Shown here one piece after another: positions 7,857-40,676 of a stretch of 64,000 nt of DNA. This DNA comes from Alloalcanivorax mobilis (lineage in GTDB: Bacteria; Pseudomonadota; Gammaproteobacteria; Pseudomonadales; Alcanivoracaceae): positions 62,001 to 126,000 of the forward strand of contig NZ_NMQZ01000015.1 of the NCBI RefSeq assembly GCF_002864685.1. The letters are read 5' to 3'. The position numbers and the translations under genes were made by a program. Position 1 is the first letter of the stretch. The number at the start of each line of letters is the position of its first letter. The notes under the pieces were generated by a model, which saw only the letters and a list, made by a program, of their open reading frames with translations, did not search any database and was not told the DNA's origin.

Positions 7857-8725
7857 GCAACGCCGATTTCAAACAACGTTTTCTGTTTCCCGATTCCGAC
7901 GTGCGCGGTGAACTGGTGCGCCTGGAAGACAGCCTGGCGGCGATTCTCGGCGCCCATCAGTACCCGATGGCGGTGCAAGGCCTGGTCGGCGAGGCGGTGG
8001 CCGCCGTTGCCCTGCTTACCGGCACCCTCAAATTCCAGGGCCGGCTGAGCCTGCAGGCCCAGGGCCAGGGCCCGGTGTCGCTGCTGCTCGCCGAATGCAC
8101 CCACGACGGCCAACTGCGCGCCCTGGCCCGGCACCGGGACGCCTCGGAGTTCGACAGCGCCGACCTCACCCGCCTGATTGGCGACGGCACCATGGTGATT
8201 ACCATCACCCCGGACCAGGGCCGCCAATACCAGGGCATCGTGCCCCTGGAAGGCGACACCCTGGCCGCTTGTCTGGAGGCCTATTTCCGCCAGTCCGAAC
8301 AGCTCGACACGCGCCTGTGGCTGGCCGCCGGCAACGGCCGCGCCGCCGGTTTGCTGCTGCAACGGCTGCCCGAACAGATCGCCGACAGCGAACACAACAA
8401 GGCCACCTGGCAGCACCTGGATGCCCTGGCCGGCACCCTGAAAATGGAAGAGCTGCTGGACCTGGACGCACAAACCGTGCTGCGCAGGCTGTTCCACGAA
8501 ACCCCGCCGCGCCTGCCCGACGCGCAACCGCTGCGCTTAGGCTGCACCTGCTCACGCGAGCGCACCCGCAACGCGCTCTACTCGCTGGGCGCCGAGGAAC
8601 TGCAAAATCTGCTCGACGAAGACGGCGGCGCCACCCTGACCTGCGATTTCTGCCTCTCCAGTGAACGCTTCGACGCCGTTGATCTGGCGGAGCTGATTCG
8701 GGAACGGCGGGACGCGGGGCGCTAG
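7853..8725 (+). CDS. hslO: Redox-regulated chaperone Hsp33
   Basis: This is a 290-residue Hsp33. The C-terminal redox switch has the four zinc cysteines in CxC (Cys231, Cys233) and CxxC (Cys264, Cys267). On oxidation zinc leaves, disulfides form and the holdase becomes active in the cytoplasm. The start is TTG, overlapping the hslR stop in the string TTGA; a GAAGGTG stretch upstream can serve as ribosome site. The last codons (RDAGR) and the stop codon lie inside the first units of a heptanucleotide tandem array, so the C-terminus may have been shaped by that repeat. Confidence 0.95.
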
Positions 8726-8868
8726 ACGCTGGACGCTGGACGCTGGACGCCGGACGCTAAACCCTGGCTCGGAAAGGTTTGGCGTGTTTGCTGCCATGCC
8801 TTGGCAGAAAACACGCCAGGGGTAGCAGAACCGGGTTAAAGCGTCCGGCGTCAGGCGTCTAGCGTCAG
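8711..8868. repeat. Heptanucleotide array pair A (GACGCTG / GCGTCNN)
   Basis: Seven consecutive 7-nt units run from 8711 to 8759 (GACGCGG, GGCGCTA, then GACGCTG three times, GACGCCG, GACGCTA). Four opposite-sense units follow at 8841-8868 (GCGTCCG, GCGTCAG, GCGTCTA, GCGTCAG). The arms are roughly complementary around an 81-nt loop, which has its own hairpin near 8780-8817 (GGCGTGTTT pairing with AAACACGCC). The left array contains the hslO stop codon (8723-8725). Confidence 0.85.
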
Positions 8869-10740: not shown

Positions 10741-10885
10741 ATCCCCCCTCTCCCCAACCCCTCTCCCGCCAGGGGAGAGGGGCTAAAACACATACCGCCC
10801 GGAAACGCCCCTTTTCTTCTCCACACCGCCTTTCTGGAGCGTCCCCTCTCCCCTTGCGGGAGAGGGGCAGGGAGAGGGGCGTGCA
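10741..10885. repeat. CCTCTCCC/GGGAGAGG extragenic palindromes
   Basis: Two hairpins built on CCCCTCTCCC...GGGAGAGGGG words lie at about 10747-10783 and 10842-10880. The same type recurs near 11025-11062 and 53697-53802. This C/T-rich extragenic palindrome is common in proteobacterial genomes. Confidence 0.75.
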
Positions 10886-11142
10886 AGCATCCCAGTCATC
10901 TGCCCACTTGAAACGCGGGCGCGGCCCAGACGGTGCGGGAGTGGCCGCCATCGTCGGCGAGGGGCTAAAACACACACCGCCCGGAAACGCCCCCTTTTCT
11001 CCTCCACACCGCCTTTCTGGAGCGTCCCCTCTCCCCTTGCGGGAGAGGGACAGGGAGAGGGGCGGGCAAGCATCCCAGTCATCTGCCCACCTGAAACGCG
11101 GCCGCGGCCCAGCCGGTGCGGGAGTGGCCGCCATCGTCGGCG
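10777..11142. repeat. Tandem duplication of a 182-183-bp unit
   Basis: Copy 1 (about 10777-10959) and copy 2 (about 10959-11142) align almost throughout, with a few substitutions and a 1-bp indel. The unit contains a CCTCTCCC palindrome and the last about 20 codons plus stop of the leftward DUF6351 gene. Copy 2 is the functional 3' end (stop at 11079). Copy 1 is a detached, non-translated duplicate of that end. Confidence 0.9.
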
Positions 11143-13685
11143 AGCGGTTGCCCGCCGGTGATGACCCGGTCGGCGCTGCCGTATTGCAGCCAGGTTTGCG
11201 TCGGCACCCGGTGGGCCGGCGGTTTGCTGTAGTCGCAGACGCCGTCGGGGAACACCTCCGCTACCTGGGCGGCGAAGCCTTCCGGGTTAAGGATGCCGGT
11301 GAGCAGGTTGACCGGGTAATCGGTCGGGTCCACCGGCCTGAGCTGACACTTATTGGTGAGCGTGGTGATGGCGTCGCCGGCGATGGTGCGTGGGGTGCCG
11401 AAGCGGGTTTGCACCAGGGTCTGTTGCAGGCGGGCGACCGCGTCGGTGAGCGGCGTCAGCAGGTCGCCGATCTGGCCGGGCAGGCCGAGGGCGGCGAGAT
11501 CCAGGCCACACACCTGGCTGGTGAGCGCGTCCACCACCACGCCGGCTTGCGGGGGCGGCGGCGGCAACAGGGAAAGATCAAGCCCGGGAAGAATCGGGTC
11601 GGGGTAAAGCAGGTTGCCGGTGAACGGCACGATGGGGCCATCCGCGCCCAGCAGGGACGACACCGACAGGCACCGGTCGCGGGCTTGGATCGGCTTGTTG
11701 GTGAGCACCTTTTCAGCAATCGGGGCGTCGCTCTGGTCGGCTTCGATGTCCGCCAGCCAGCGGTCCATTACCAGCAGCGCCTCGGTGGTGTAGACGGTGT
11801 CGCCGGCCAGGGGAAAAGCGCCGAACCAGATCACCTGGTTGTCGGAATAGCCCTGGGTCTGCTCCAGCCGCGCGCGCATTTGCCAGGAGTGGTAGGCGTC
11901 GTGGGCGATGCCCGGGTCCGGCCCGCGCAGGTCGATGATGGCCAGGTTGGCGAGGTGCTCGGCGGTGTTGATGGCGCCGGAGCGGTAGGCATTTTCCAGA
12001 GCCTGAGGGTCGGCCCGGGTGCGCTCGGGCTGATAGTCGATGTCCACGTTAAAGCCGCCGATCTCGCGGTTCACCCTGAGGAACTGCTGCCCGCTGATGG
12101 CGCCGTCTTGCAGCGCTTTCAGGCCGTATTGCACGCCTTCGTTGTCCAGCGGAATGCCGGTGAAACCGCGCCCCAGCGTCTGTTCGTTGAGCGACCACAC
12201 CGACTGCTCCCGAGTACCGAACTGATTGACCATGTAATCGATCAAGCCACAGCGCAGCCCGTCCGGCCGGGTCACCGGGTCATACACGTCAATGCCTTCA
12301 GCCAGCCCGGGGCATTCCGCCTGGTCCGGGTAGGCGGAGGGGAAGAACGCCAGGTCCGAGACAATCGGGTTGAGCGGCAGGTGGCCATAAAACGCGGTCC
12401 ACTGGGCCACGGGGATCACCCCGGAGGTGAGCAGAGAAGTGATCACCGAAAGGAAATCCTGCGGCCCGGTGGGGATCTGGTTACCAAAGTATTGGCTGAG
12501 CAGATTGTAATCGGCGAACTGGGTGGCGGTGGTCCAGGCGTCCGGGTAGGAGCACTGCACGATGATGCCCTGGTAGATGCCCGGGTAAGCGTTGGCGATG
12601 TGCTGCTGGGCAATGGCGCCACCGGAGCAGCCGGTGCCGATGGTGTAGCGCAGCTCGCCGTATTGCTCGACGATGCGCTCCTTGGCCATCATCAGCGATT
12701 CGGCGGCGGTCACCAGATTGACGTTGTGGCCCAGGTTGGCCTGGGCGGAGGAGAGGGTGATAAAGCCGCGCCCCAGGGCCACCGTGATGCTGTCGCCAAG
12801 CAGCAGCTCGGCGCCTTCCGGGGCGGTGCCGGCGATGTCGCCATTGGGCGGCTCACCGGGGCCGTAGCTGACGCCCACGTTGCCGCCGTGATGAATCAGC
12901 AGCTTGTGGTTCCACTGCGGCTGCGGATGCAGCGCGTTCCATTCCTGATCCGGTTGATACAGCGCCATGATCTGGTAGCGGTCGCGGTTCTGCACGCCGG
13001 TTTCCACGCGCACGATGAACGGCACCTCCACGCCCTGGTCGGTGGTGACCCGGGCGATCACGTCGGCGGCGGGAGGGTTGGCCGGGTCGTAGGGCAACAG
13101 GGCGCCGGGCAGGCCCGGGTTGATCGGGTCGAAATTGGTGATCAGCGCTTGCAGCTTGTTGGCCGGCACATACTTGAAGCTGTACTCCGGGCTCTGGTTG
13201 CACTGGGCGTCCACGGCGGCGGCGTTGGTGCAGGTCCAGGGCTGGATCTGCGGGCCGGAGAACACCGGGCCGCCGTTGGGGTGGTTGATCACGGTGCGGC
13301 GCAGCACGGAGCGGTCCGCCAGCTGCACGGCGAGGGTATTCTCGCCCAGCGCCAGGCCGTCGATCAGACCTTTCAGGGAGCCTTCGCCGGTGGCCGACAG
13401 CCGCGCCGAAACGTCGCGCTCACCCACGGTCATCGAGGCACCGTCCAGCAGCGCCGGATCGTCGGCCACCACTTCCACCAGAACATCGCCACCGCTGATC
13501 AGGTCGGCGCGGTTGGAGAGCACACGAATCTCGCCGTCGCCGGCCACCGGATCGGTGGGGGTCGGTTCCGAGGGGTCCGGATCGCGCGGGCCCGGGTCGC
13601 CGCCGGAGGACGATCCACCGCCGCCGCCGCAAGCGCCCAGTAACACGGCCAGAGAAACAACAGCACAAGCATGAACCAGCTTCAT
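11079..13685 (-). CDS. DUF6351-like secreted lipoprotein, putative alpha/beta hydrolase (paralogue 2)
   Basis: This 868-residue protein is the longest of three paralogues. A lipoprotein signal peptide (LLGAC, lipid Cys19) is followed by a Gly/Ser stretch and a Pro/Asp linker. The domain shared with paralogues 1 and 3 carries the nucleophile motif GTGCSGGAIAQQ (candidate Ser354) and the C-terminal FPDGVCDYSKP. About 60-80 extra residues near the C-terminal third (LPPPPPQAGVVVDALTSQVC and surroundings) are absent from the others. The ribosome site GGGAG precedes the ATG. The last 20 codons lie in a tandem duplication that left a copy of the gene end downstream. It does not share the upstream element of paralogues 1 and 3. 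Catalysis is inferred; the substrate is unknown. Confidence 0.75.
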   Translation of the reverse strand: MKLVHACAVVSLAVLLGACGGGGGSSSGGDPGPRDPDPSEPTPTDPVAGDGEIRVLSNRADLISGGDVLVEVVADDPALLDGASMTVGERDVSARLSATGEGSLKGLIDGLALGENTLAVQLADRSVLRRTVINHPNGGPVFSGPQIQPWTCTNAAAVDAQCNQSPEYSFKYVPANKLQALITNFDPINPGLPGALLPYDPANPPAADVIARVTTDQGVEVPFIVRVETGVQNRDRYQIMALYQPDQEWNALHPQPQWNHKLLIHHGGNVGVSYGPGEPPNGDIAGTAPEGAELLLGDSITVALGRGFITLSSAQANLGHNVNLVTAAESLMMAKERIVEQYGELRYTIGTGCSGGAIAQQHIANAYPGIYQGIIVQCSYPDAWTTATQFADYNLLSQYFGNQIPTGPQDFLSVITSLLTSGVIPVAQWTAFYGHLPLNPIVSDLAFFPSAYPDQAECPGLAEGIDVYDPVTRPDGLRCGLIDYMVNQFGTREQSVWSLNEQTLGRGFTGIPLDNEGVQYGLKALQDGAISGQQFLRVNREIGGFNVDIDYQPERTRADPQALENAYRSGAINTAEHLANLAIIDLRGPDPGIAHDAYHSWQMRARLEQTQGYSDNQVIWFGAFPLAGDTVYTTEALLVMDRWLADIEADQSDAPIAEKVLTNKPIQARDRCLSVSSLLGADGPIVPFTGNLLYPDPILPGLDLSLLPPPPPQAGVVVDALTSQVCGLDLAALGLPGQIGDLLTPLTDAVARLQQTLVQTRFGTPRTIAGDAITTLTNKCQLRPVDPTDYPVNLLTGILNPEGFAAQVAEVFPDGVCDYSKPPAHRVPTQTWLQYGSADRVITGGQPLADDGGHSRTGWAAAAFQVGR

Positions 13686-28914: not shown

Positions 28915-31224
28915 ATGAGCGCGATCATCATCGGAGTGCTGCTCGGCCTGCTGGCGCTGGCGATGATCGGTGGCGGCGCCTGGCTGGCGCTGCTCGGCGG
29001 TAGCCTCTATTACCTGCTCGCCGGCCTGGCCCTGCTGATCAGCGCGGCGCTGCTGATCGCGCGGCGCCGCGCCGGCCTGCACCTGTACGCCTTAACGCTG
29101 CTCGCCACGCTGCTGTGGAGCCTCGCCGAGGCCGGCTTGAACGGCTGGGCGCTGGCGCCACGGCTGGGCCTGTGGCTGTTGTTGGGCCTGTGGCTGCTGT
29201 GCCCGTGGCCGGTGCGGGCGCTGGCCGGCGCCCGCTGGCCGGCCAGCGCGGTGCCGCTGGCGGTGACGGTGGCGGTGAGTGGCGTGCTGTTGCTGGCCGG
29301 CCTGCCCCGCGACCCGGTGCGCCTGGACGGCGAGCTGGACCTGAGCGCCGTGGGCAGCGCCGCCGGCAGCAGCCCGCAGTGGCCCGCCTATGGCCACGAC
29401 GGCCACGGCCAGCGCTACTCGCCGCTGACCGGCATCACCGCCGATAACGTGCACCGCCTCGAGCCGCTGTGGCGCTACGACGCCGGGCCACTGCGCGATC
29501 CACAACGCCGCCACGGCGGCGCCTTCGAGGCCACCCCCCTGAAAATCGGCGACAGCCTCTATTTCTGCACCCCGGACCACCGCGCGGTGGCCCTGGACGC
29601 GGACACCGGCGCGCTGCGCTGGCACTTCGACCCGCGCACTCCGCCGGCGCGCAGCCAGGGCGTCACCTGCCGTGGGCTCACCTACGTGCCCGCCGGCGAC
29701 GACCACCCGGCACGGCTGGTCCTGCCCACCAGCGACGCCCGCCTGATCGCCCTGGACGCCGCCACCGGAAAGCCCAGCAAAGGGTTCGGCCGCAACGGCG
29801 AGATCGACCTGTGGGCGAACATGCCGGGCCGCGCCAATGGCACCTACTACGCCACCTCACCGCCGGCGCTGGCGCGCGGCAAGCTGATCGTCGGCGGCTT
29901 GGTCAACGGCCCGCCCACCCGGGTGCTGCCCGCCGGCGTGGTGCGCGCCTACGACGCCGCCAGTGGCCGGCTGGTGTGGAACTGGGACCCGGCCCGCCCC
30001 GAACACACCGCGCCCATCGCGGACCGGCGCTTCTACCAGCCCAACACGCCCAACCACTGGTCGGTGGCCAGCGTCGACGACCGCTTGGGGCTGGTGTATC
30101 TGCCAATGGGCACCTCGGTGCCCGACGAGTGGGGCGGCAATCGGCCCGCCGCCAGCGAACCCTACTCCTCGGCCATCGTGGCGCTGGACGCCGACACCGG
30201 CCGGGTGCGCTGGAGCTTCCAGGGCGTGCACCACGATCTCTGGGACATGGACATGCCGGCCCAGCCCAGCCTGCTCGACCTGAACATCGGCGGCCACCGG
30301 GTGCCGGCACTGGTGGCGCCCACCAAGCAGGGCGACCTGTATGTGCTGGATCGCCGCAGCGGCCGGCCGCTGTTGCCGGTGCGCGAGCTGGCCGCGCCGA
30401 TTGGCGCCCCCGGGCAACGGGTGGCGCCCAGCCAGCCCGCCTCCGGGCTCAGCTTCAACCCGCCGTTGCTGCGCGAAGCGGACATGTGGGGCGCCACGCC
30501 TCTGGATCAGCTTTATTGCCGGCTGCGCTTCCGGCAACTCGATTACCGTGGTCGTTATACACCACCCGGGGAACGGGGCACGCTGGTCTACCCGGGCTAT
30601 TTCGGCGTGTTCAACTGGGGCGGCATCGCCGTTGATCCGATCCACCAGGTGGCCTTCACCACTCCCAGCCGGCTCGCCTTTGTGTCACGCCTGGCGCCAG
30701 CCAGCGCCAATCCGCTCGACGGCGCCTCCCGCGCCATTCCCCTGACCGTGGAGAAGGGCCCGTTCCTGTCGCCGCTGGGATTGCCCTGCCAGGCGCCGCC
30801 GTGGGGGCTGGTGGCGGGCGTTGATCTGCGCAGCGGCGAGACCGTCTGGCAACGCCGCAACGGCACCGTGCGCGACAGCTCGCCGCTGCCCCTGGCGCTG
30901 CCCCTGGGCGTGCCGGATCTGGGCGGGCCGATCATTACCGCCGGCGGCGTCGCCTTTATGAGCGGCACGCTGGATCAGTATCTGCGCGCCATTGATCTGG
31001 AGACCGGCGCGGAACTGGGCCGCTGGCGCCTGCCCGCCGGCGGCCAGGCCACGCCGATCACCTACCTAGACAGCCACGGCCGGCAAATCGTGCTGGTGGT
31101 GGCCGGCGGCAACCAACCCCTGGGCAGCCGCACCGGCAACACCCTGATCGCCTTCGCCCTGCCCGGCCAGGACCGCGACGCCTTCACGGACGCCAACACC
31201 CCGGCGGAGGATGCTGGTCACTGA
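28915..31224 (+). CDS. Membrane-bound PQQ-dependent dehydrogenase, glucose/quinate/shikimate family (paralogue 2)
   Basis: This 769-residue paralogue of the enzyme at 21213 is very alike across the propeller (WANMPGRANGTYYATSPP, LWDMDMPAQP). It has a five-helix N-terminal membrane domain and a somewhat shorter segment between propeller blades 1 and 2. It should oxidise a sugar or polyol with PQQ and reduce ubiquinone. The start codon lies only 14 bp past a MITE, with just a weak AGGG ribosome site, so its promoter may lie within the element or upstream of mltB. It is followed by a DUF255 protein 25 bp later. Confidence 0.88.
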   Translation: MSAIIIGVLLGLLALAMIGGGAWLALLGGSLYYLLAGLALLISAALLIARRRAGLHLYALTLLATLLWSLAEAGLNGWALAPRLGLWLLLGLWLLCPWPVRALAGARWPASAVPLAVTVAVSGVLLLAGLPRDPVRLDGELDLSAVGSAAGSSPQWPAYGHDGHGQRYSPLTGITADNVHRLEPLWRYDAGPLRDPQRRHGGAFEATPLKIGDSLYFCTPDHRAVALDADTGALRWHFDPRTPPARSQGVTCRGLTYVPAGDDHPARLVLPTSDARLIALDAATGKPSKGFGRNGEIDLWANMPGRANGTYYATSPPALARGKLIVGGLVNGPPTRVLPAGVVRAYDAASGRLVWNWDPARPEHTAPIADRRFYQPNTPNHWSVASVDDRLGLVYLPMGTSVPDEWGGNRPAASEPYSSAIVALDADTGRVRWSFQGVHHDLWDMDMPAQPSLLDLNIGGHRVPALVAPTKQGDLYVLDRRSGRPLLPVRELAAPIGAPGQRVAPSQPASGLSFNPPLLREADMWGATPLDQLYCRLRFRQLDYRGRYTPPGERGTLVYPGYFGVFNWGGIAVDPIHQVAFTTPSRLAFVSRLAPASANPLDGASRAIPLTVEKGPFLSPLGLPCQAPPWGLVAGVDLRSGETVWQRRNGTVRDSSPLPLALPLGVPDLGGPIITAGGVAFMSGTLDQYLRAIDLETGAELGRWRLPAGGQATPITYLDSHGRQIVLVVAGGNQPLGSRTGNTLIAFALPGQDRDAFTDANTPAEDAGH

Positions 31225-31249
31225 CCGTTCATTGACCCAGGGTGTTTTT

Positions 31250-33067
31250 ATGTCCGTGTTACTGCGCCTGTCGCTGATCATCAGTGTGTTGCCGGGCCTG
31301 GCGCTCGCCGCCAACCCCGGCCCGGTGGCCTGGCGCGACTGGTCACCGGCGGTGTTCGAACAGGCCCGCCAGGAGCACAAGCTGGTGCTGCTGGACATGG
31401 AAGCAGTGTGGTGCCACTGGTGCCATGTGATGGATCAGCAGACCTACGCCAACGCCGACGTGGCCGCCTGGCTCGAGCAGCACTACATCGCCGTCAAGGT
31501 GGATCAGGATGCCCGCCCGGATCTCGCCAACCGCTACCGGGACTACGGCTGGCCGGCCACCATTTTGTTCGCCGCCGACGGCACCGAGCTGGTGAAGCGG
31601 GCCGGTTACATCCCGCCGCAACCGTTTCTTCAATTGCTCACCGCCACCGTCAACGACCCCACCCCGGAAGCCCGCGCCGCCCACCCCACGGTGAGCACCT
31701 TCGCCGGCTCGCCGCAACTGGACAAACGCCTGCGTGACGAACTCAAAGCCATGCATCAGCGCAGCTACGATGCGCGCCTCGGCGGCCTGCGGCTGCAACA
31801 GAAATTCCTCGACCGCGACAGCGTTGAATACATGCTGGTGCGCGCCCGCCAGGGCGACCAGGACGAAGCCGCCAGGGCGCGGCAGACCCTGGACGCGGCC
31901 CGCGCATTGATCGATCCGGTGTGGGGCGGTGTCTACCAATACTCCACCGGCGGCGACTGGCAACACCCGCACTTCGAGAAAATCATGGAAGTGCAGGCCG
32001 GCTATTTGCGTCTCTACGCCCTCGCCTACGCGCAATGGGGCCGCGATGCGGATCTGCAATCCGCGCGCGCCATCCGCGATTATCTGAACGCTTTTCTGAG
32101 CGCGCCGGACGGCGCCTTCTACACCAGCCAGGACGCCGACGTGAACCCGGGCGAACACAGCGGCGAGTACTTCGCACTGGATGACAAAGCGCGCCGCGCC
32201 GAGGGCATCCCCCGGGTCGATCAGCACCGCTACGCGCGGGAAAACGGCTGGGCCATCGAAGCCCTGGTGAGCCTGTACGCCGCCAGTGGCGACCAGGCCG
32301 CGCTCACCCGCGCCGAAAAAGCCGCCCGCTGGACCTTGCAACACCGCGCCCTGGACGGCGGCGGCTTCCGCCACGACCAGCAAGACAGCGCCGGCCCTTA
32401 CCTGGGCGATACCCTGGCCATGGGCCGCGCCTGCCTGGCGCTGCACCAGGCCACCGGCGAGCGCGACTGGCTCGATTGCGCGCGCGGCGCGGCGGATTTT
32501 ATCGGCGGCCACTTCAAACAGGACAAAGCCGGCTTTCTGACCAGCGCGCCTTCAAGCAACGACGCGGTGCCGCCGGTGCCGCACATTGACGAGAACATCG
32601 CCCTCACCCGCTTCGCCAACCTGCTGTTCCATTACACCGACGACGCCCGCTACCAGGCCCTGGCCCAGCACGGCATGCGCTATCTGGCCACGCCGGACGT
32701 GGCCACCGCCCGCATCGAGGAAGCCGGCGTGCTGCTCGCCGACCAGGAGCTGGCCACGCCACCCCGACATTTCGCCGTGGTCGCCCGCCACGATGACGAC
32801 ACCGCCGCCGCCCTGTACACGGTGGCGCTGCGTCAACCCGGCGCCTACAAACGCCTGGAATGGTGGGACCGCCGCCAGGGCCCGCTGCCCAACGCGGACG
32901 TGCCCTACCCGGAAACCGACCGGCCCGCCGCCTACGTGTGCACCGAAAACCGCTGCTCAACGCCGTCGTTCACCGCCGCCCGCTACCAGCAAACCATACA
33001 AAGACTCACCGCCCCCGACCCACGGACGCCAGACGCCGGCCGCCGGCCGCCGGCCGCCGGCCGCTGA
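31250..33067 (+). CDS. DUF255 thioredoxin-fold / glycan epimerase-like exported protein
   Basis: This 605-residue protein has a signal peptide (LSLIISVLPGLALAANPG) and an N-terminal thioredoxin-like domain with a CxxC in EAVWCHWCHVMDQQTY. A long helical region resembles six-hairpin (N-acylglucosamine epimerase-like) folds, as in YyaL/DUF255 proteins. Its function is not established. The export signal and its place after a PQQ dehydrogenase suggest a periplasmic redox or maturation role; that is inference. I chose the ATG at 31250 rather than 31211 because the signal peptide starts there. The last codons (DAGRRPPAAGR) and stop lie inside a heptad array. Confidence 0.8.
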   Translation: MSVLLRLSLIISVLPGLALAANPGPVAWRDWSPAVFEQARQEHKLVLLDMEAVWCHWCHVMDQQTYANADVAAWLEQHYIAVKVDQDARPDLANRYRDYGWPATILFAADGTELVKRAGYIPPQPFLQLLTATVNDPTPEARAAHPTVSTFAGSPQLDKRLRDELKAMHQRSYDARLGGLRLQQKFLDRDSVEYMLVRARQGDQDEAARARQTLDAARALIDPVWGGVYQYSTGGDWQHPHFEKIMEVQAGYLRLYALAYAQWGRDADLQSARAIRDYLNAFLSAPDGAFYTSQDADVNPGEHSGEYFALDDKARRAEGIPRVDQHRYARENGWAIEALVSLYAASGDQAALTRAEKAARWTLQHRALDGGGFRHDQQDSAGPYLGDTLAMGRACLALHQATGERDWLDCARGAADFIGGHFKQDKAGFLTSAPSSNDAVPPVPHIDENIALTRFANLLFHYTDDARYQALAQHGMRYLATPDVATARIEEAGVLLADQELATPPRHFAVVARHDDDTAAALYTVALRQPGAYKRLEWWDRRQGPLPNADVPYPETDRPAAYVCTENRCSTPSFTAARYQQTIQRLTAPDPRTPDAGRRPPAAGR

Positions 33068-33115
33068 AAACTGAAAACTGAAAACTGAAAACTGAAAACT
33101 GAAAACAGTATTCAG
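33025..33115. repeat. Heptanucleotide array E, thirteen units in one phase
   Basis: Thirteen consecutive 7-nt units run without a phase break: GACGCCA, GACGCCG, GCCGCCG three times, GCCGCTG, AAAACTG five times, AAAACAG, TATTCAG. Unit sequence changes from GC-rich to AT-rich while the 7-nt register holds. The array contains the DUF255 stop codon (33065-33067) and the convergent TetR stop (33112-33114). Confidence 0.93.
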
Positions 33116-33717
33116 TTCAAACTGGCGCGAACCCGCCGAGCCAGCGCCGGCTGCAAAACGGCAGAAAGAAACCGTGGTCGTGGCAGCGACAACTGATCCA
33201 CCACCAGCCCGCTGATCAGCGCGGTGATCTCGGCGGCGTCCTCGCGGGGCGAAGCCGCGCCCAGACGCTGCAACGCGGCCGCCACCCGCAGGGTGTAGCC
33301 GCGCCCCCACTCACGCACCAGCGGCCGCAACTCGGCGTTGCGCGCCGCCGCCAGGCGCAGCTCCATCAGCGCCAGCCCCATGTCGCGATTTTTAACCAGG
33401 CGCCGCTCGGCGTTGCGGGTCAGCACCGCCACCAGTTGCTCGGCGCTGGTGGCCGCGTCGAGCTGCGGAAAATAGCGTTCCTGATCGGCCAGATTGGCGG
33501 CGCCCACATACTCCATGGTGGCACGCAGCAGGCCCTCGATGGCGCCAAAGTGATAGGTGACCAGACCATGGCTGGTGCCGGACTCCCGCGCCACCGCCCG
33601 GTGGCTGATGCCCGCCACGCCCTGCTCGGCGATGATCCGGAAAGCGGCCTCGATCAGCCCTCGCCGCACCCGCTCGCCGCGGCTCGAGCTTTCGTCGTTC
33701 ACCCCAGCTACTGTCAT
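33112..33717 (-). CDS. TetR/AcrR family transcriptional regulator
   Basis: This 201-residue repressor has an N-terminal helix-turn-helix (EQGVAGISHRAVARESGTSHGLVTYHFG). The C-terminal ligand domain is not assignable to a known subgroup. It diverges from an SDR gene with 98 bp between starts, and a TTCTACA-AA-TGTAGAA dyad lies there. It probably represses the SDR (and perhaps the GST) and itself. Its stop codon is in the terminal unit of a heptad array. Confidence 0.88.
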   Translation of the reverse strand: MTVAGVNDESSSRGERVRRGLIEAAFRIIAEQGVAGISHRAVARESGTSHGLVTYHFGAIEGLLRATMEYVGAANLADQERYFPQLDAATSAEQLVAVLTRNAERRLVKNRDMGLALMELRLAAARNAELRPLVREWGRGYTLRVAAALQRLGAASPREDAAEITALISGLVVDQLSLPRPRFLSAVLQPALARRVRASLN

Positions 33718-35309: not shown

Positions 35310-35531
35310 AGCTGTCGTTTGTGGGATGCTAATGACCAGGGTGGCCACTGCAGCGCCGTCCGGCTGACGCCGGTTCGCGGTCAAGGACCGCTCCCACAGC
35401 GGCGCTGTAGAAGGGTCTGTGTGGTTTGTAGACGCCGCTCTGTCTACAAGGCCGCGCGGGAGCGATCCCTGATCGCGAAATTTTTTGGCCGGCTGGCACG
35501 GCGCTTTTGCCGCGAACCTGATGGTTTTTGC

Positions 35532-35566
35532 GTCGGACGTCGGACGTCGGACGTCGGACGTCGGAC
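35532..35566. repeat. Heptanucleotide array F1, five GTCGGAC units
   Basis: Five perfect GTCGGAC units lie in tandem, followed by GCAAAAG. Unlike most arrays in the window, it is inside an intergenic region rather than at a stop codon. Confidence 0.95.
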
Positions 35567-35644
35567 GCAAAAGATTAAAATCGGAACCGTCGCTGGCTGG
35601 GCCTGCTCCTACAATAAAACAGCGCAACAACGTACCCCCCCTTT

Positions 35645-35669
35645 CACTGAAAACTGAAAACTGAAAACC
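35645..35669. repeat. Heptanucleotide array F2, three AAAACTG units
   Basis: About three CACTGAA/AACTGAA units match the AAAACTG units of array E, 2.5 kb away. The array ends 17 bp before the DUF5062 start codon. Confidence 0.85.
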
Positions 35670-35686: not shown

Positions 35687-35926
35687 ATGAAAAAGCTCAA
35701 GAACGAGAAAGAATTGGTCAAGAAAGCCATCGCGTTGGGCATGGCCTATGGGGAAAAGCGCGGCGTGGTGGAGTTCGAGGCCACCGATTCGGCGGCGGAG
35801 AAAGTCGAGTATATCTATCGGCTGCTGGTGCACGATGAGGTGATACAGGCGCTGCCGGAAGACCAGGTTTCCCAACCATCGATGCAGCATAAGCTGGCGA
35901 TCTGGGCGTCCAAACAAAAAGGGTGA
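35687..35926 (+). CDS. DUF5062 family protein
   Basis: This 79-residue acidic/basic helical protein (MKKLKNEKELVKKAIALGMAYGEKRG) is recognised as DUF5062, a small cytoplasmic family known mainly from gammaproteobacteria such as Vibrio. No function is known. CCCGGAG upstream may be the ribosome site. The stop lies 34 bp from the convergent MocR gene end. Confidence 0.75.
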   Translation: MKKLKNEKELVKKAIALGMAYGEKRGVVEFEATDSAAEKVEYIYRLLVHDEVIQALPEDQVSQPSMQHKLAIWASKQKG

Positions 35927-40194: not shown

Positions 40195-40676
40195 CGCAGA
40201 TCTCACTGTTTTTTTGGAATTCGTACCCGGATTGTTTTGATTCAGGCTAGGCCGGTTCCAGGTGGGGAAAACAGACACAGTTGGAGAGAAAGCAATGGAA
40301 CAGCGGGTGAAGGGAGCGCGAACAGGCCCAAGGTTAAGGGGAACAGCCGGACTGGCGCAGGTGTTGGATTCCAATGTGGAAACTATCCCCAACCGCGAAC
40401 GGGCTCTGCCAGGCCGTCCTCGCCTTTCAGGCTCGGGTCGCGATCGAGGATCGCTCCCACAGCGGCGTTGTAGAGGGCCGAACAGGGAACAGGTTGAAGG
40501 GAACAGCAGGCCTGCGCCGGGTTTGGATTCTGATGTGGGAGCGGTCCTTGACCGCGAATCGGCGTTGCCAGGCCCGGGCTCGCCTTCGGCTCGGTTCGCG
40601 ATCAAGGATCGCTCCCACAGCGGCGTGGTGTGGTGAGAGGCCGTGCCCGGGTTGCGGCCCCGCGGGTACCGCCCTC
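40195..40676. repeat. REP cluster and diverged tandem duplication upstream of DUF6351 paralogue 3
   Basis: After the promoter segment (element at 40265-40283), two related segments lie at about 40317-40465 and 40475-40625. Each contains a GGTTGAAGGGAACAGC-like word, GGATTC and a REP palindrome ending GATCGCTCCCACAGCGGCG. They are tandem copies of a REP-bearing unit with considerable divergence. No gene was recognised. Confidence 0.75.
40265..40283 (-). promoter_or_regulatory. Shared upstream element, copy for DUF6351 paralogue 3
   Basis: On the minus strand this reads AACTGTGTCTGTTTTCCCC, 71-89 nt upstream of the start at 40194. It differs at a few bases from the copies at 2711-2731 and 2805-2823. 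GTTGGAGAGAAA at 40281-40292 is identical to 2786-2797. Confidence 0.45.

Follow-up and report, generated by a model that had tools for sequence, protein, structure and literature searches.

We find that the thirteen consecutive 7-nt units at positions 33025-33115 of the window (the whole 64,000-nt stretch of DNA analysed here), which we call array E, are probably two separate short heptad arrays that touch within a tight convergent gene junction and that would have grown by slippage; we put the probability of this reading at roughly 60%. The units run in a single phase in the order GACGCCA, GACGCCG, GCCGCCG (three copies), GCCGCTG, AAAACTG (five copies), AAAACAG and TATTCAG, and there is no gap where GACGCC/GCCGCC-type units give way to AAAACTG.

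Two touching heptad arrays between convergent genes

The first-pass annotation had reported thirteen in-phase heptads with a change of unit at this place and a recurrence of AAAACTG further downstream. Both are seen directly in the letters, the recurrence at 35646-35668; the earlier list of units omits GACGCCA, which comes first. A TRF run on the window assigns period 7 to 33023-33064 and to 33064-33106, the second with 100% matches, and the two perfect arrays within array E, 33034-33064 and 33064-33106, have base 33064 in common. The features of the region are as follows.

31211-33067, + strand: coding sequence, 618 aa, Thioredox_DsbH/DUF255-type; its stop TGA, 33065-33067, lies inside the AAAACTG array
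33025-33063, + strand: left array, GACGCCA, GACGCCG, GCCGCCG x3 and the start of GCCGCTG; coding, at the end of the upstream coding sequence; perfect period-7 run 33034-33064
33060-33066, + strand: hinge unit GCCGCTG, whose CTG (33064-33066) doubles as the start of the right array
33064-33106, + strand: right array, CTGAAAA x6.1, AAAACTG family, perfect; TGA in all three frames
33107-33115, + strand: decayed end of the right array, the rest of AAAACAG and then TATTCAG; contains the stop of the TetR-type gene, 33112-33114
33112-33717, - strand: coding sequence, 201 aa, TetR-type regulator, convergent to the Thioredox_DsbH/DUF255-type coding sequence
35646-35668, + strand: the window's second AAAACTG array; 18 nt separate its 3' end from the called start codon of a DUF5062 gene (35687-35926)

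The two convergent coding sequences end 44 nt apart, and the gap between them is almost all AAAACTG copies. The left array encodes, heptad by heptad, the last 13 residues of the 618-aa protein (the tail reads TPDAGRRPPAAGR), and the first TGA in the AAAACTG array serves as the stop of that gene. Array E is in this respect half coding, unlike the mostly intergenic AAAACTG-type arrays. Among 37 other genomes there are two clear orthologues of the 618-aa gene (67% and 59% identity), both with a stop codon that no heptads follow, one stop being 126 nt from the end of its contig; judged from these sequences, the heptads at array E do not appear to be old at the depth of the two orthologues. A phase-variation repeat was considered and rejected, since array E sits where both genes end, between their stop codons, and occupies no promoter or early coding position.

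Perfect period-7 runs that reach 21 nt number 8 in the window and 0 in 20 order-5 Markov sequences, so array E and the other heptad runs of the window are not the product of chance. Every other period from 1 to 20 gives at most one run, except period 14, at which these arrays simply show up a second time. The AAAACTG array at 35646-35668 scores under the TRF cut-off. In the same gap, 78 nt upstream of it, stands a perfect GACGTCG array (35531-35567, 5.3 copies) that adjoins REP-like GCGGTCAAGGACCGCTCCCAC sequence. The window also holds two tandem duplications of about 2 copies each, at 10777-11144 (unit 183 nt) and 40331-40626 (unit 159 nt).

Distribution and orientation of heptad arrays

CTGAAAA x3 has 62 overlapping matches in the genome that carries array E (0 for the reversed control) and 0 matches in 56 relatives, 12 of them of the same genus. 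Our sample of this genome is 434 kb, made up of the window and 20 further stretches, 16 of which were picked for bearing AAAACTG. In it, perfect runs 21 nt or longer number 60 at period 7, followed by 6 at period 14 and 3 at each of periods 6, 21 and 28. When the length threshold is set at 19 nt there are 74 runs, of which 30 are AAAACTG, 10 ACGCCGG (equivalent to GACGCCG), 9 AACACTG and 4 AAAAGTT, the rest being rarer; AAAACTG is thus the commonest heptad of the sampled part of the genome. GACGCC-type units are present and AAAACTG is absent in 375 kb of the relatives. Beyond the relatives, CTGAAAA x4 occurs in at least 115 stretches from at least 80 genomes of many phyla, although the phylum make-up of the matches listed is not usable as a frequency; viral contigs carry it in 19 stretches (L262-L280). 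The first gene call places 43 of 44 AAAACTG-type arrays of this genome between genes and the second places 0 of 45-46 inside genes, both calls being made with custom codon-usage scripts. The heptads of this genome share traits of the bacterial heptad repeats already described (GGGAATC, TAACTGA, STRR), namely a tandem 7-nt excess over other periods and, for AAAACTG-type arrays, a dispersed, mostly intergenic position.

AAAACTG arrays of this genome do not begin at random points of the unit: A4, C or A3 is the first letter in 19 of the 20 that reach 27 nt; with lengths made phase-neutral, the start phase is non-uniform here (n=20, p 6e-7), and both start and end phase are weakly so across phyla (n=49, p 0.02 each, among the matches listed). 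Array length modulo 7 was dropped as a signal, dominated as it is by the length threshold. We also rejected a universal ACTG core: ACTGNNN x4 is found in 23 of 299 Pseudomonadota genomes, this one included, against 19 for the reversed control, some of whose matches stem from ACTGAC-type units, and the core is therefore not special in Pseudomonadota. A 17-mer that runs across variant units occurs 8 times, which hints at copying between sites. In Chloracidobacterium sp. UBA7656 a compound of GTCAGAA...TAAAA followed by ACTG(AAAACTG)n stands at several gaps (L045, L090, L150) and looks like copying rather than independent slippage. Arrays within one genome may have common descent.

AAAACTG arrays mostly have their 3' ends toward gene edges. 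By the first gene call the 3' end is the one nearer a gene edge in 36 of the 44 AAAACTG-type arrays of this genome (median 17.5 vs 87 nt); by the second, AAAACTG and AACACTG arrays taken together are outward in 35/45, or 34/44, and AAAACTG alone in 22/30. Counting one vote per gap gives 21 against 7 with 3 ties. The matches listed across phyla include 125 arrays, of which 7 lie in called genes and 23 are without a called neighbour; among the 95 kept, the 3' end is nearer in 78 (19 vs 117 nt), the vote per gap is 71 against 15 with 2 ties, and in 52 of 67 genomes the majority is outward, with 13 reverse and 2 ties. The edges faced are start and stop codons alike.

The same arrays come in inverted pairs. 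When two AAAACTG-type arrays lie at most 300 nt apart they stand head-to-head in 12 pairs in this genome and in 18 across phyla, tail-to-tail in none of either, and in the same direction in 1 and 3, respectively (the cross-phylum counts being among the matches listed). An inverted arm is present within 150 nt upstream of 25 of 45 arrays of this genome, compared with 4.5% of random 150-mers, and TTCAGT-N(1-90)-ACTGAA has 73 overlapping matches in the whole genome, the reversed control having 0. Two head-to-head heptad gaps (G000:C4:86359-86459 and G000:C24:54912-55005) have a near-identical spacer with a GCGGGYACCGCC...GGCGGYACCCGC hairpin.

Several causes of the polarity were tried and rejected. 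Composition does not produce it: the outward strand of array-free gaps has a purine content of 0.48-0.51, and counts of AAAACTG-cycle 5-mers stand at 133:135 outward to inward in this genome and at 375:290 across phyla, a slight bias among the matches listed. Nor is a general rule for the purine-rich strand supported, as other heptads give 60/106 across phyla (among the matches listed), 8/29 in this genome and 1/16 in the relatives. Pairing does not seem to be the whole cause, solo arrays being biased across phyla as well (31/42 among the matches listed); the 10/14 in this genome is not significant. The pair class in this split was defined by a one-mismatch 8-mer, with which we estimate that about a quarter of the partners may be false. 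The minor families AAAAGTT, AACACGC, GACGTC, CAAGCT, CACGC and AATCCTG have few arrays each, and three of them lean inward on the strand as written.

GACGCC arrays show the mirror polarity: YGGCGTC is outward in 15 of the 16 decided cases of this genome and in 9/9 in the relatives, cases that are not independent because both arms of one element are counted. Most GACGCYR arrays in this genome flank a GGCGTGTTTCCTG...CAGGAAACACGCC core as the outer arms of an inverted element, and the strict core is found in 5 of 38 genomes, namely this one and 4 of 12 congeners. One such palindromic element lies at 8710-8840 of the window and others at L159, L161, L162, L164 and L165; besides its GACGCYR outer arms it has AAACCC/GGGTTT, the GGCGTGTTTCCTG...CAGGAAACACGCC core and a pair of inner stretches, each about 15 nt long and unlike the other. 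Array E has neither the core nor the AAACCC motif. Given the mirror polarities of the two families, array E fits the left arm of one family set against the right arm of the other, and as a whole it is consistent with the polarity and the inverted-pair rule.

Register across a change of unit

The phase of array E is continuous over all 13 units, and to this extent the single register claimed for it in the first-pass annotation holds. The letters themselves are less decisive: GCCGCCG and AAAACTG agree at 2/7 letters in the actual register, which ties with two other registers, so that the letters single out no shared register at the junction. Against AAAACTG the hinge unit GCCGCTG scores highest in the actual register (3/7), yet its CTG is already inside the perfect CTGAAAA array.

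Other adjacent arrays tell more about how register behaves. Taking as adjacent any two unlike heptad arrays separated by no more than 14 nt, we obtain 7 pairs from this genome, 7 from the relatives and 58 across phyla (among the matches listed). No other register beats the actual one in 6/7, 7/7 and 50/58 of these, or 63/72 in total, and the actual one is uniquely best in 4, 7 and 44, or 55/72, where chance would give about 1/7 (the cross-phylum pairs again being those among the matches listed). From the 63/72 it follows that keeping register through a change of unit is a general property of heptad arrays. We simulated arrays under slippage and point mutation with 8 parameter sets, whose values were picked by hand, and found the actual register best or tied in 78-97% of the simulated adjacent pairs. 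The earlier argument that slippage cannot alter the unit without a phase break is therefore wrong, since in simulation slippage with mutation does exactly this, at rates comparable with the 63/72 among the matches listed. Gain and loss of whole heptads is still the natural reading, and the sister repeat TAACTGA offers a precedent in the 7-nt indels reported for Cyanothece.

Abrupt changes, which we define as at most 4/7 letters in common, make up 16 of the 72 pairs among the matches listed (18 when two head-to-head pairs, otherwise left out, are included), compared with 10-38% in the simulations. Of the 16, 11 abut without a gap (among the matches listed) where the simulations give 18-50%, a difference with Fisher p from 0.0005 to 0.41 and below 0.05 in 5 of the 8 parameter sets. 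This mild excess suggests that new units begin at the edges of older arrays. It also lends mild support to in-register recombination, the other route proposed at first pass, although at array E itself the register is ambiguous. The closest parallel to array E among the matches listed is in Wenzhouxiangella sp. XN79A (L117 946-1087), where about 9 TAACCCT units are followed directly by about 10 AAAACTG units.

Origin of array E and comparison with known repeats

In the reading that we favour, the left arm of array E would be a member of the GACGCC family, whose plus-strand form is usual at the left edge of intergenic gaps in this genome, and the right arm a member of the AAAACTG family, whose plus-strand form is usual at the right edge, with its 3' end near a gene. 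Each array would have grown in place by gaining 7-nt units through replication slippage, with units altered through point mutation and through fresh arrays arising at the margins of older ones, and the space between the two arms may then have been lost, bringing the arrays together. If the arms were joined by loss of a spacer, their common phase across the hinge would be chance. Against the two-arm reading, array E has neither a spacer nor the palindromic core of GACGCYR elements, and the pairing of GACGCC with AAAACTG in one gap has no established parallel elsewhere. As to why arrays face gene edges, most likely they form the arms of dispersed intergenic inverted repeats, which persist only where there is no gene. 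No new mechanism is needed for the junction, which is ordinary in itself. Slippage alone nevertheless leaves unexplained the start phases, the polarity and the presence of one unit at many sites here but in 0/56 relatives.

If instead a single array had shifted its unit stepwise, or had recombined in register with another array, the phase at the hinge would be inherited. The register counts speak for such inheritance in general (63/72 pairs in register and 55 uniquely, among the matches listed, against about 1/7 by chance), as do in-register series from AACACTG to AAAACTG (L173 9639 and L175 2567) and from AAAACTG to AAAGCTG (L163 15491) in this genome and the excess of abutting abrupt changes over 5 of the 8 simulated parameter sets; at array E, however, the agreement is 2/7 with two tied registers and no intermediates stand between GCCGCTG and AAAACTG, and we consider this origin unlikely here. 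It is more doubtful still that array E is the remnant of a GACGCYR-type palindromic MITE/REP-like element in which one arm was replaced by AAAACTG. The element exists in this genome and in 4/12 congeners and most GACGCYR arrays here are its outer arms, but its core and its AAACCC motif are both missing from array E.

Two further possibilities concern function and the source of the repeats. The heptads might serve as a structured 3' end common to the two convergent transcripts, as their position between two stop codons would allow and as a predicted fold of plus-strand 33015-33125 that is better than 200 shuffles (z -4.9, owing mainly to the GC-rich left array) might suggest. Low-order structure is expected from any GC-rich self-complementary repeat, though, and no U-run follows the GC hairpin on either strand, so array E is not a classical terminator; we regard the whole proposal as quite improbable. 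Writing of the heptads by a telomerase- or DRT-like reverse transcriptase would account for a single unit at many sites in one species only, but RVT_1 (PF00078) has no match in this genome (99.97% complete) and matches 7/12 congeners, all of them without CTGAAAA x3, so that this origin is largely refuted and has a negligible share of our expectation.

Touching arrays of two families, as we read array E, can be set beside repeats already described. Two earlier papers already cover the surplus of 7-nt repeats, the suspicion that slippage causes it and the dispersal between genes (PMC4692102, PMC4679880). The GGGAATC and GGGGA(C/T)T heptads of Xanthomonas and Nostoc are dispersed and intergenic with varied units (Rehm et al. 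2015, PMC4692102). GGGAATC arrays are there nearly always nearer the ORF at their own 5' side, whatever the ORF direction, at distances that average 28 vs 160 nt in xanthomonads, and their convergent inverted pairs number 70 in one Xanthomonas genome and 75 in another, with few between divergent ORFs. AAAACTG has the same polarity and pairing, read on the opposite strand. GGGAATC, as that account presents it, is G-rich and capable of forming G-quadruplexes, with a rule drawn from three genomes, while AAAACTG is another unit and has no G-run, from which it follows that the polarity is independent of quadruplexes. STRR heptanucleotides of Calothrix and other cyanobacteria, likened here by their description in the same source, also have a 7-nt unit and several units per genome (PMC4692102).

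The nearest relative by sequence is the TAACTGA direct repeat of Beggiatoaceae, cyanobacteria and Bacteroidetes (MacGregor 2015, PMC4679880); read as ATAACTG it is one letter from AAAACTG, and both are intergenic with stop codons in three frames. That report describes TAACTGA arrays as likewise split by related 7-mers, with strains differing in 7-nt steps: the differences between two Cyanothece strains are small and "mostly indels in 7 nt increments". It also gives TAACTGA as mostly forward toward the start codon in one genome, with one inverted case in the main genome, and, for 22 intergenic sets sampled in Microcystis, 6 forward, 8 reverse to the start and 8 between stops. In the system as described there, related heptamers are rarely tandem and the polarity is not general, unlike AAAACTG (PMC4679880).

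REP/BIME and MITE-type intergenic palindromes are inverted repeats that lie in short gaps and have many copies. The GACGCYR element fits this outline and array E, without a palindromic core, does not; AAAACTG pairs, unlike such palindromes, show no common spacer on inspection.

A literature search, with most subscription journals outside its reach, found no paper on CTGAAAA/AAAACTG arrays. What is new here is the edge-facing rule in a non-quadruplex repeat across many phyla, together with a junction of two families. Tentatively, and at clearly less than even odds, some bacterial heptad families, among them AAAACTG, GACGCC (on the other strand) and GGGAATC, may face coding edges as a general rule that does not depend on the unit, with direction set by a process or a selection that reads strand and edge, and not by quadruplexes or plain slippage; array E would then be a collapsed gap with arms of different families. 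Slippage is blind to where genes start and end, yet AAAACTG arrays follow the GGGAATC placement rule without quadruplexes. The polarity of AAAACTG thus separates the placement rule from the sequence, and with it the long-standing question of what lies behind the bacterial preference for 7-nt repeats becomes testable.
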